Source: Rugalucina vietnamica
Lineage: Eukaryota; Mollusca; Bivalvia; Lucinida; Lucinidae
Length of the DNA: 64,000 nucleotides
NCBI GenBank assembly: GCA_964017185.1
Contig: OZ024872.1
Coordinates: 43,282,188 to 43,346,187 of the forward strand
Direction: 5' to 3'
Shown: positions 51,102 through 62,680 of the stretch, in pieces
How positions within the stretch are numbered: position 1 is the stretch's first letter
Layout of the letters: each line of letters begins with the position of its first letter
Translations under genes and position numbers: made by a program
The notes under the pieces: model-generated
What the model was told of the DNA's origin: nothing
The model's input: only the letters and a program-made list of their open reading frames with translations
The model's database searches: none

Positions 51102-51170
51102 ATGGCCTCAATAAAGGGAAACAACATTCCATTTTGTTTGGTAAGCACCGATGACGCATACGAGGTAAGA

Positions 51171-51220
51171 CTCTCTCTCTCTCTCTCTCTCTCTCTCTCT
51201 CTCTCTCTCTCTCTCTCTCT
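51171..51220 (+). repeat. (CT)n microsatellite after exon 1 donor, copy 1
   Basis: About 25 CT units starting 6 bases past the 5' splice site of intron 1. Confidence 0.95.
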
Positions 51221-51366
51221 GTCTCTCTATCAGTGCTAATCATCATGCAAATTACTTGTATTAACACCATTTAACTTGGCATTTGCTTATGTGCAGACCT
51301 GATGGTAGCCTCAACGTACAATATTTCGTGGAGATGTGCTAGACCATTATTTTTCTTCTTCTTCAA

Positions 51367-51605
51367 CATATGAGCCACCTCGTGGGAAACAACAATGTGG
51401 TTTCCGAACAGGTCTGACACAAACAGACCTGTACAGTCTCAGAAAAGAGCTAGAAGCTTGAAATTTTGGATTTAAGTAGAAGAGGATATGTACTATCCGA
51501 GTAGCGAAAACAAAGGCGCTGATCAGCTTCGCGGTTACCGCGAAGCTGATCTGCGTCTTTGTTTTCGCCAATGCAGATTGTTGGTTTTCCCACGAGGCGG
51601 CTCAT
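51367..51605 (+). mobile_element. Family A foldback MITE in intron 1 of AANAT copy 1
   Basis: ATATGAGCCACCTCGTGGGA to CACGAGGCGGCTCATAT. Absent from the same intron of copies 2 and 3, so inserted after duplication. Central hairpin perfect (TTCGCGGTTACCGCGAA). Confidence 0.9.
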
Positions 51606-52712
51606 ATAAAATAAATGCAGTTGCCTTTGTCGAATTATATCATTTTGTACTCGTGAACGTTTTGTGACTTGCATCAAATTTACATGTATATGTATAGTAG
51701 TTTCTTCGAATCATTAAAACAACCTTCGTGTTTTGTTTTGTTTTCTTTTCTTTTCGTTGTAGGCTGTGACGAAGCTGAATAACGACAATAACGACTTGAC
51801 ATCAAACGGTCATGAATACGTTCTTATTGACGATAATCGATCTGCCGAAATAATCGATATGTTCCGAGACGATTATTTGCCAGATGAAACAGCGAGCCGA
51901 GCTCTTGGACTCTCGTTGAACGAGGAATTCAAAGATACCATCCGGGCACAGGTACTATTTCAGTTGAAATTTGCCATCATATCGCCTATACCTGTCTATA
52001 TCTGTCATATTCCTAGAACGGAAACGATGACATTAAGCTAACGAAATGTTGAACAACTGGCCCCTGGTAGATGTGATCTCGTGCACCGTATTGTGACTTT
52101 ATGCAAAAATTCTCATAGGATCGGAGATGATGCTTATAAGCTTATACATGTAGCTTTTTATTACTGAATCCTGTACCATAATATTGAAAATTGTACGTAT
52201 CTGTAGAATTACGAATAAGGGTTGTGTTCCGTTTTGCTCTTTTCTAGATAAAACAGAATCTCTCAGTTGGTATCATGGCAACAGACCAACAGAAAATTGT
52301 AGCATGGCAGATAATGTCGATTGCAAACAAAAATGACGAAAAAGCTTGTCTTAAAGAGGAAAAGAACCAACAATGGTTTGACATTTTAAATTTTGAGGAG
52401 GACGAAAGCCATATTTATCAACGATACAGTATCGAACGTCATGTGTTTGTGCACCCATAGGGCATTTAGAGGTCGCGGTCTTGGATATAAGATGATGCAG
52501 GCATCTATTAAGTTTTTGAAAAACTTGGGGTTTGAAGGAGGCGTTGTATTTGGTGAAGGATCAGCGAAACAATCTCAAAGAATTTTTGAGAAATGTGGTT
52601 TCGAAGCTATTTTTCAGCTTTTATTTTCAGATTACAAAGTTAACGGAGAAGCCATCTTCTCTAAGGCAGGCGATGGAGCAATAACTAAATTGTATGCAAG
52701 AATAATTTAAAA

Positions 52713-59282: not shown

Positions 59283-60770
59283 AACTCGTCACCAGACTGA
59301 ACAGCTAAATTGTTTTCATAGACAGAATGATTTAACAAAAAGTAGGCTTTAAAATGAGAATTCTCCTTCCATCATAGCCCCGCAATTATCTTTCAAGGTA
59401 TCGCTCCAAGGTATATGCACGCAAGAGTAACATAAGAGAAAATATGAAACGCGTCATCAGACTGAACAGCTAAAATGCACTTTCAAGAATAATATGAAAC
59501 TCGTCATCAGACTGAACAGCTAAATTGTATTTGCACGAATAATACGAAACGCGTCACCAGACTGAACAGCTAAAATGTACTTGCAAGAACAAAAAGAAAC
59601 TCGTCATCAGACTGAACAGCTAATTGTATTTGCAATTCATCTTCATACTGAACAACTAAATTGTATTTGCAAGAATAATATGAAACGCGTCATCAGACTG
59701 AACAGCCAAATTGTATTTGCAAGAATAATATGAAACTCGTCATCAGACTGAACAGCTAATTGTACACGCAAGAATAGTATGAAACTCGTCATCAGACTGA
59801 AAGTTAAATCGTATTTGCAAGAAAAATATGAAACGCGTCATCAGACTGAACAGCTAAATTGTTTTTGAAATAATAATATGAAGCTAGTCATCAGAACAGC
59901 TAAATTGTATTTATAAGAAGAAATATGAAACGCTTTATCAGACTGAGCAGCTTAATTGTATTTGCAAGAACAAAATGAAATTCGAACAGCTAAATTGTAT
60001 TTGGAACTCGTCATCAGACTGAACAGCTAACTTGTATTTGCAAGAATAGGATGAAACGCGTCACCAATAGCATGAAACGCGTCACCAGACTGAACAGCTA
60101 AATTGTATTTGTAAGATTAATATGAAACTCGTCGTCAGACTGAACAGCTAAATTGTACTTGCAAGAATAGTATGAAACTCGTCATCAGACTGAACAGTTA
60201 AATTGTATTTGCAAGAAAAATATGAAACGTGTCATCAGACGGAACAGCTAAACTGATTTTTGCAAGAATAATATGAAATTCGTCATCAGAACAGCTATAT
60301 TGTATTTATCAGAAGAAATATAAAACGCGTAATCAGACTGGACAGCTTAATTGTTTTTGCAGGAACAAAATGAAACTCGTCATCAGACTGAGCAGCTAAA
60401 TTGTCATGATTTGTAAGAATAATATGAAACATTTCATCAGTCTGAACAGCTATATTGTATTTACAAGAATAATATGAAACTCGTCATCAGACTGAACAGC
60501 TTAATTGTATTTGCAAGAAGAGTATGAAACGCATTATCAGACTGAAAAGCTAAATTGTGTTTGCAAGAAAAATATGAAACACGTCATCAGACTGAACAGC
60601 TATATTATATTTATAAGAAAAAAAAAATAAACGCGTCATCAGACTGGACAGCTAAATTGTATTTTTAAGAATAATGTGAAACTCGTCATCATACTGAACA
60701 GCTAAAATAATATGAAACGCGTTATCAGACTGAATTTGCATGAATAATATGAAAAGCGAAGCACACGAGA
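59283..60770 (+). repeat. Minisatellite after copy 2, about 29 units, 1.5 kb
   Basis: The longest of three related arrays. Units of about 45-52 bp vary (CGCGTCATCAGAC or CTCGTCATCAGAC) and some are truncated. One non-repeat interruption lies near 59310-59440. Each unit contains a near copy of the gene's last codons (TTGTATGCAAGAATAATTTG). Confidence 0.92.
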
Positions 60771-61059
60771 ATGCGAAACAGCGTCCGTATTTACCCGACT
60801 TGATATTAAGAACCTCCAACGCTGATGGAGTGCTAAAGTATTAATATACTCAGATTTGCCCTTAGATGAATCAAAAATCAGCTTCTGTATGTAACACCAG
60901 GCCGCTAACTATAGCATCACGGTCCTTGTGTTTCTTTAAGGATTTGGTTACACATTCAACGATTACATGACACGGTTGACATTCCAGTTTTATCTTTCCT
61001 ATGGCAAAATATATGGGACATGAACGAGATATAAACTTTTGATTTATACAAAGGTCAAT

Positions 61060-62076
61060 ATGACTTCCACGAAAGGGAAAAACATTCCGTACTGTTCGAT
61101 AAGCACCGATGTCGCGTATAAGGTATGATACTCTCTCTCTCTCTCTCTCTCTCTCTCTCTCTCTCTCTCTCTCTCTCTCTCTCTCTCTCTCTCTCTCACA
61201 CACACACACACACACACACACACACACACATTTAAGTAATGAGCCATCTGATTTACTCGTTAATACATGTATGTAATTACATTGTATATCTATCTTGTTT
61301 TCTTGTCGTTACAGGCCGTGACGCAGCTGAATAACGATTATGACGACTTGACCTCTGAGGGCTATGCATGTGTCCTTATTGACGATAATCGATCTGCTGA
61401 AATAATCGATATGCTCAGAGACGATTATTTACCAGATGAAACATCGAGCCGAGCTCTTGGACTCACGTTGAATGATGAGTTCAAAGATGTCATTCTTTCG
61501 CAGGTATCTATTAACCGTTTTTAGCTCAAATACTTACATGCAAACTTTTTCGAGCGTACGCATTTTCTTTCCATAATACTTATGTGGATGTGTTCCAGAT
61601 AAAACAGAATCTCTCAATTGGTATCATGGCAACAGACACCAAGAAAATTGTAGCCTGGCAGATTACGTCGATTACAAACAAAAATGACGAAAATCCATCC
61701 CCATTTTGAAGAAGAAAAGAATCAACAATGGTTTGACATTTTACGCTTTGAAGAGAAGGAGAGCGGCATTTATCAACGATACGGTATCGTAAATGCCGTC
61801 TACATAACATGCTTATGCACCCATAGGGCATTTAGAAGTCGTGGTCTTGGCTATAAAATAATACAGGCATCCATAAGGTATTTGAAAAACTTGGGATTTG
61901 AAGGACGCGTAGTGTTTGGGGAAGGTTCGGCAAAACAATCTCAGAAAATTGCCGAGAAATGTGGTTTTGAAGTTATTTTTCAGCTTTTATATTCAGACTA
62001 CAAAGTTAACGGGGAAGTCATCTTCTCTAAGGCAGGCGATGGAGCAATAGCTAAATTGTCTGCAAGAATAATTTGA
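61060..62076 (+). pseudogene. AANAT-like GNAT acetyltransferase, copy 3, frameshifted in exon 3
   Basis: Exons 61060-61122 (MTSTKGKNIPYCS), 61315-61503 (VLIDDNRSAEIIDMLRDDYL) and 61599-62076. Introns are short and free of transposons (192 and 95 bp). In exon 3 a small replaced segment near 61690-61715 is 4 nt longer than in copy 2; the frame from exon 2 runs into TGA at 61708-61710. The rest reads openly in another frame to the normal stop (RAFRSRGLGYKIIQA, where R-S-R replaces R-G-R). It is the most diverged of the three. It might still be used from an internal ATG at 61684, but that would lack the N-terminal half. Confidence 0.75.
61131..61230 (+). repeat. (CT)n(CA)n compound microsatellite after exon 1 donor, copy 3
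   Basis: About 33 CT then about 17 CA units. This is half of a 192-bp intron. Confidence 0.95.
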
Positions 62077-62680
62077 AACACGTCATCAGACTAAACAGCT
62101 AAATTGTATGCAAGAAAAATTTGAAACGCGTCATCAGACTGTATGCAAGAATAATAATTTCAAAATAATTTACCAGACCGAAGCGCTAAATTGTATACAT
62201 TGACAGAATGGTTTCACAAGAAATGGGCATGAAAATGAGTAATCCCCTTCCTTCATAGTTCCATAACTATATTTCAAGGTTACTTCCGAAGTACGTATGT
62301 ACACGCAAGAATAACATGAAACGCATCATCAGACTGGACAGCTCAATTGTATTTGCCAAAAATATGAAACGCGTCACCAGACTTAACAGCTAAATTGTGT
62401 TTGTAAGAAAAATATGAAACTCGTCGTTAGACTGACTGTGTCAGCTATACTGTATTTGTAAGAAAAATATGAAACGTGGCATCAGACTGAACAGCTAAAT
62501 TGTACTTGCAACAATACTATGAAACGCATGATCAGCCTAAACAGCTACATTGTATTGGCAAGAAAAATATGAAACGCGTCATCAGACTGGACAGCTACAT
62601 TGTATTTGCAAGAAAAATATGAACACGTCATCAGACTGAACAGCTAGATTGTATATATGGAATAATAGCATGGAAATCGC
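62077..62680 (+). repeat. Minisatellite after copy 3, about 11 units
   Basis: Same unit family as after copies 1 and 2, with an interruption at about 62165-62300 that parallels the one after copy 2. Confidence 0.88.

Follow-up and report, generated by a model that had tools for sequence, protein, structure and literature searches.

A minisatellite probably born at the 3′ terminus of an AANAT-like acetyltransferase gene and carried through its duplication in the bivalve Rugalucina vietnamica

Satellites and minisatellites can arise from sequences that already exist in the genome, and the passages considered of two reviews (PMC5615363, PMC12692304) trace them to an rDNA spacer or to parts of transposons. 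The locus described here resembles these cases in that a short piece of pre-existing sequence appears to have been tandemised and amplified. However, it differs from the rDNA spacers and transposons described in those passages, since the probable seed straddles a stop codon in a protein-coding gene, and the repeats stay adjacent to this gene. In the clusters of Sp185/333 immune genes of the sea urchin, GA and GAT repeats have been proposed to promote duplication, deletion and conversion (PMC5103432). As in these clusters, tandem repeats occupy here fixed places around tandemly duplicated genes. Nevertheless, the Sp185/333 repeats are microsatellites that the passages considered (PMC5103432) do not describe as gene-derived, in a family with almost no pseudogenes, whereas two of the three gene copies studied here are frameshifted. 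Among the titles and abstract openings listed, we found no clear published example of a minisatellite that arose across a stop codon and was retained when the gene was duplicated, which is not a claim that none is in print. The present locus is not a new kind of system but a probable local example of repeats arising from a gene.

The analyzed stretch of 64,000 nucleotides from R. vietnamica (hereafter the window) carries a cluster of three tandem copies of a three-exon GNAT gene, all on the + strand, with ATGs at 51102, 56300 and 61060 and with exons 1 and 2 whose lengths are each a multiple of three (Table 1). Copy 2 is the only one with an intact ORF: exon 3 of copy 1 is shifted out of frame by an 11-bp deletion at about 52435/52436 and that of copy 3 by a 4-bp insertion at about 61694. 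Since pN is lower than pS in all three segments of all three copy pairs, the two frameshifts could be either recent events or errors in the sequence. Within exon 3, the portion containing the gene end (codons 66 on) is under purifying selection, with a pN of 0.076 and a pS of 0.360 between copies 2 and 3. The protein encoded by copy 2 has a GNAT domain, scoring 31.2 bits against PF00583 (Acetyltransf_1), above the curated cut-off of 20.7. Its best PDB match is 4fd4 (E 6.2e-10), and its other insect matches among solved structures include 4fd7, 4fd5 and the Drosophila Dat (3te4). From the profile search and these matches, copy 2 is similar to insect AANAT/dopamine N-acetyltransferases and the three copies are classified as AANAT-like GNAT acetyltransferases of putative activity. 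The likeness to the insect proteins (PDB 3te4, 4fd4, 4fd5) concerns the GNAT domain and the C-terminal register; compared to Dat, 16 of the 45 C-terminal residues of copy 2 are identical. The single-sequence structure prediction of exon 3 of copy 2 gave a mean pLDDT of 36, too low to be of use. One locus out of 29 candidate stretches encodes a relative of the exon-3 protein (L001, on a contig of a Lachnospiraceae MAG), which is 26% identical over residues 35-123 and was set aside; the searches yielded no usable outgroup. None of the five candidates from viral contigs held up as a relative of this protein.

Minisatellites are head-to-tail repeats of roughly 10-100 bp that form a short local array; classical satellite DNA consists of abundant long arrays found at many genomic places. 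The repeats that follow the three genes are minisatellites, with a 50-bp period, a head-to-tail arrangement and array lengths between about 250 and 1300 bp. The end of each gene is itself a unit of 48 bp made of the last 24 coding bases (eight codons), the stop codon and 21 bases of 3′ flank, and the array unit differs from it by two extra bases and one substitution, which makes 50 bp. The gene-end unit is identical to the 50-bp array consensus at 45/48 positions in copy 2, 44/48 in copy 3 and 40/48 in copy 1. The first-pass annotation had described the array unit as a near copy of the last coding bases and first 3′ bases of the gene, and the match of copy 2 bears this out, the homology extending over the last codons, the stop and the 3′ flank. 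TRF delineated arrays of about 50-bp units at 52685-52929, 59437-60706 and 62305-62654 and a 48-bp array at 62049-62140. Wrap-around alignment gave 52 rows, 44 of which were kept as units, the other eight being short fragments that were left out: five units for array 1 (52684-52929), 1+28 for array 2 (59256-59303 and 59434-60737) and 2+8 for array 3 (62050-62144 and 62298-62692). The initial estimate of 4, 29 and 11 units was therefore roughly right (5, 29 and 10 tabulated units for copies 1, 2 and 3, gene-end units included). Several units of array 2 have internal deletions. BLASTN over the whole 64-kb window with a 100-bp two-unit query (E up to 1e-3) detected no unit outside the cluster, all matches lying within 52680-62682. 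When compared without gaps to positions 1-52600, the copy-2 gene-end unit reached at best 26/48 on the + strand and 27/48 on the - strand. A 25-bp unit pattern had no exact match in viral or prokaryote contigs.

Table 1. Positions in the window of the gene copies, gene-end units, spacers and arrays.
Feature	Position	Strand	Remarks
Copy 1, AANAT-like GNAT gene	51102..52710	+	exons 51102-51164, 51763-51951, 52248-52710 (end placed by alignment)
Copy 1 gene-end unit, 48 bp	52684..52731	+	aligned to copy 2, it includes the last 8 codons and the TAA stop
Array 1, four units of array type, 48-50 bp each	52732..52929	+	directly 3′ of the gene-end unit; TRF, unit alignment
Copy 2, with an intact ORF (241 aa)	56300..59282	+	exons 56300-56362, 58058-58246, 58809-59282; TGA 59280-59282
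Copy 2 gene-end unit, 48 bp, across the stop codon	59256..59303	+	unit alignment
Copy-2 spacer, non-repeat, between gene-end unit and main array	59318..59433 (approximate limits)	+	homologous to the copy-3 spacer
Array 2, 28 tabulated units and one fragment	59434..60750	+	9-unit higher-order repeat
Copy 3	61060..62076	+	exons 61060-61122, 61315-61503, 61599-62076
Copy 3, units on the gene side: gene-end unit at 62050-62097, another of the 48-bp type at 62098-62144, two incomplete ones	62050..62196	+	TRF, unit alignment
Copy-3 spacer, non-repeat	62197..62297	+	homologous to the copy-2 spacer
Array 3, 8 array-type units	62298..62692	+	unit alignment

Two founder changes separate the array-type units from the gene-type ones. 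The two extra bases, at columns 12-13, are present in 37/37 readable array-type units (40 in total). Column 26, which is T in the four gene-type units, is A in 37 of the 40 array-type units, G in one, missing in two and T in none. One of the four gene-type units (A3a.03 in copy 3) does not form a gene end and was counted among them by its own letters, as it is devoid of the two extra bases and carries T at column 26. This second 48-bp unit of copy 3 is possibly the early duplicate that seeding from the gene end leads one to expect, a later re-duplication being the alternative. The arrays themselves are not distinguished by their units: over 32 near-full-length array units, the mean distance is 0.163 between arrays and 0.162 within them (difference 0.002, p=0.43), and minor variants are common to several arrays (A at column 22 in arrays 2 and 3, T at column 33 in all three). 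By mean distance, array 1, whose four units are close to the consensus, is the nearest array for each of the four gene-type units. The gene end of copy 1 is thus closest to its own array, a result also expected from independent growth, but those of copies 2 and 3 are not. Because there is no clustering by array and two derived changes are shared, the simplest reading is that the array would have been seeded once, before the gene duplication, and then inherited, a later transfer between copies being possible. The birth of the array by slippage at the gene terminus, as initially proposed, agrees with a unit that copies this terminus behind each of the three genes, but the shared derived changes and the absence of grouping by array do not support a separate seeding for each copy.

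Contrary to a further statement of the first-pass annotation, the array directly follows the gene only in copy 1, which has no spacer; copies 2 and 3 have a spacer of ~120 bp and ~100 bp, respectively. These two spacers are homologous and differ at 27 of 103 aligned sites (26%). The idea that they consist of degenerate repeat units was not supported (shuffle p 0.42 and 0.95). The repeats stop at unit column 12 and restart at column 8 in copy 3, and stop between about columns 10 and 20 and restart at column 17 in copy 2. Since the repeat phase is nearly continuous across the spacer, an insertion into an existing array would suit these data. On the gene side of the spacer, the full units (one in copy 2, two in copy 3) are all of gene type; beyond it, all readable units are of array type, the fragments that adjoin the spacer being too ambiguous to class. 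The presence of a spacer in two of the three copies is not what simple slippage predicts.

Taken together, these data make it probable that a non-coding minisatellite arose in a single seeding event from the 3′ terminus of the AANAT-like gene and was then carried through the duplication of this gene. A 48-bp segment comprising the last eight codons, the stop and 21 bp of 3′ flank would have been duplicated in tandem, and one of the resulting copies would have acquired two bases and a T-to-A change, giving the 50-bp form that slippage or unequal exchange would then have amplified. A non-repeat sequence of ~100 bp would have entered the array found in copies 2 and 3 (in copy 1, it would have been lost or never there), leaving gene-type units on the gene side of the spacer and array-type units past it. 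The gene would have been duplicated together with its array, and the arrays would subsequently have changed in length, possibly with some exchange of units between them. This scenario has no need for a function of the array. If it is right, the locus keeps an unusually readable record of the birth of a minisatellite, in which one can still see the stop-codon seed, perhaps an early duplicate that has stayed unmutated, the founder changes and the arrays after their growth, and the three paralogous copies provide a relative date for this birth.

The gene-type and array-type units form separate groups and their comparison alone gives no root, which would also suit the opposite polarity: the 3′ end of the gene would have landed in or by an existing satellite, a unit of which would have supplied the final codons and the stop. 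An array-type unit deprived of its two extra bases also reads, by eye, as an in-frame end with TGA. Furthermore, the last eight residues of copy 2 show by themselves no significant likeness to Dat (shuffle p=0.096). However, over its 45 C-terminal residues, copy 2 can be aligned gap-free with the last 45 of the Drosophila Dat chains, in a comparison that included six distinct chain sequences. The numbers of residues left past the alignment in copy 2 and in the chain are 12/12 for 3te4, 15/15 for 4fd4, 15/16 for 4fd5 and 25/26 for 4fd7, and only 6v3t does not fit (14 in copy 2, 21 in the chain). A search of the PDB with the C-terminus of copy 2 alone gave no alignment reaching its last 12 residues. 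When the end of Dat was used as query, its position 41 fell at residue 212 of 216 in 5k9n (E 0.14) and 7ciu (E 0.26) and at 213 of 217 in 4fd4 (E 1.1), and its position 45 at 221 of 222 in 4fd5 (E 0.63); although these E-values are weak, the four proteins end at the same place as Dat within a residue. Crystal constructs can be cut short, and the Dat chains may be truncated constructs, an approximate version of the last 10 Dat residues having found no match. As the stop of copy 2 falls where most of the compared AANAT chains end, we favour a gene end older than the satellite, a polarity based on the protein end. The purifying selection on codons 66 on and the lack of any unit elsewhere in the 64 kb by BLASTN also argue against a pre-existing satellite, which we consider unlikely.

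Other origins appear even less probable than a satellite that preceded the gene end. The window contains many interspersed repeats, and satellite-like arrays have been reported inside Helentron elements of the Pacific oyster (PMC7492417); a mobile element, for example of the Helitron/Helentron or MITE type, might have carried or made the array and placed it beside the gene. However, the unit includes the gene's own stop region and was found by BLASTN in the 64 kb only behind the three gene copies, and the 371, 310 and 411 bp that follow the three arrays have no mutual match at E up to 1, making such an origin improbable. It is just as improbable that the arrays were kept as a functional 3′ UTR element acting in RNA structure, processing or regulation. 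Constraint could also explain why arrays 2 and 3 differ by 17.9% whereas the synonymous sites of copies 2 and 3 differ by 40.7%, but arrays 1 and 2 are no closer than synonymous sites, the number of units varies from 5 to 29, and internal deletions affect several units of array 2. Moreover, three two-unit stretches fold no better than shuffled sequences (z -0.77, 0.52 and 0.45), and positions 50000-63000 contain no Rfam match at the gathering threshold. Seeding in one copy after the gene duplication, with units passed to the other copies by conversion, would account for the low divergence of arrays 2 and 3 and for the absence of clustering by array. On the other hand, the spacers of copies 2 and 3 are homologous yet 26% different; therefore, an interrupted array was seemingly already present when these copies parted, and we regard late seeding as the least probable of these origins.

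Returning to an array seeded before the duplication, its later turnover may have left traces. In array 2, a higher-order repeat of nine units was detected (lag 9, p=0.036 over lags 1-14), and its five best 5-unit diagonals, all at lag 9, are 7-9% different, fewer columns being counted there since they include units with internal deletions. Unequal exchange and segmental amplification commonly leave such higher-order repeats behind. Collinearity is weak between arrays 1 and 2 (p=0.037), and none was found between arrays 2 and 3 (p=0.51). Arrays 2 and 3 differ by 17.9%, against 40.7% when the synonymous sites of copies 2 and 3 are pooled, a value reached in none of 5000 resamplings, and these arrays are also closer than the spacers (26.2%, P=0.044), the intervals on array divergences being rough since units are related to each other. 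In contrast, the divergence of arrays 1 and 2 (13.8%) is not lower than that of the synonymous sites of copies 1 and 2 (14.8%, P=0.37), nor than that of BLASTN-aligned noncoding DNA (16.0%, 62/387, P=0.20), a reference that leans low because BLASTN retains the better-aligned parts. An earlier case for exchange between arrays 1 and 2, based on 13.8% versus 29.4% in introns and 5′ flank, was dropped, the latter value being inflated by the forced global alignment of unalignable intron parts. Exchange or constraint is thus hinted at for arrays 2 and 3 only, and an exchange of units between arrays is possible. The proposal that the array drives unequal exchange within the cluster draws weak backing from the higher-order repeat and from the closeness of arrays 2 and 3; arrays 1 and 2 do not follow this pattern and no exchange breakpoint is proved. 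Comparison with an outgroup would allow the turnover of the arrays to be set against that of the neighbouring single-copy DNA.

It is conceivable, although rather doubtful, that the array acts as a standing homology tract at the 3′ boundaries of the genes, through which the paralogues keep exchanging units and perhaps, for copies 1 and 2, the adjoining part of exon 3. If so, a by-product of the gene's own terminus would influence how its family goes on to evolve. Copies 1 and 2 show only 8/275 differences in the 3′ part of exon 3, with an identical run of 152 bp, and pS between these copies is 0.088 in exon 3 versus 0.206 in exons 1+2, values that correspond to only 5 and 11 synonymous differences, respectively. 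These figures may hint at a conversion event involving exon 3 of copies 1 and 2, but the gene-end units of these two copies differ by 10%.

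Copies 1 and 3 of the AANAT-like acetyltransferase genes are frameshifted, the former by an 11-bp deletion at about 52435 and the latter by a 4-bp insertion at about 61694. In the codons surrounding both frameshifts, comparison of the gene copies shows that nonsynonymous differences (pN) are still lower than synonymous ones (pS). All three copies carry a CT microsatellite directly 3′ of the intron-1 donor site.

Microsatellites in intron 1 of the three gene copies
Gene copy	Position	Repeat
Copy 1	51171-51228	CT
Copy 2	56377-56428	CT
Copy 3	61131-61230	CT, then CA

A short inverted match (29 bp, 86%) links 52956-52984 to 56021-56049. 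These sites lie near both ends of the interval extending from array 1, the minisatellite 3′ of copy 1, to the promoter region of copy 2, and are possibly the termini of a mobile element. A roughly 200-bp interspersed element is found at 53931-54149 and recurs at many sites throughout the window, with BLASTN matching it dozens of times across the two strands. Elsewhere, a 244-bp unit is duplicated in tandem at 14604-15092 (100% match).
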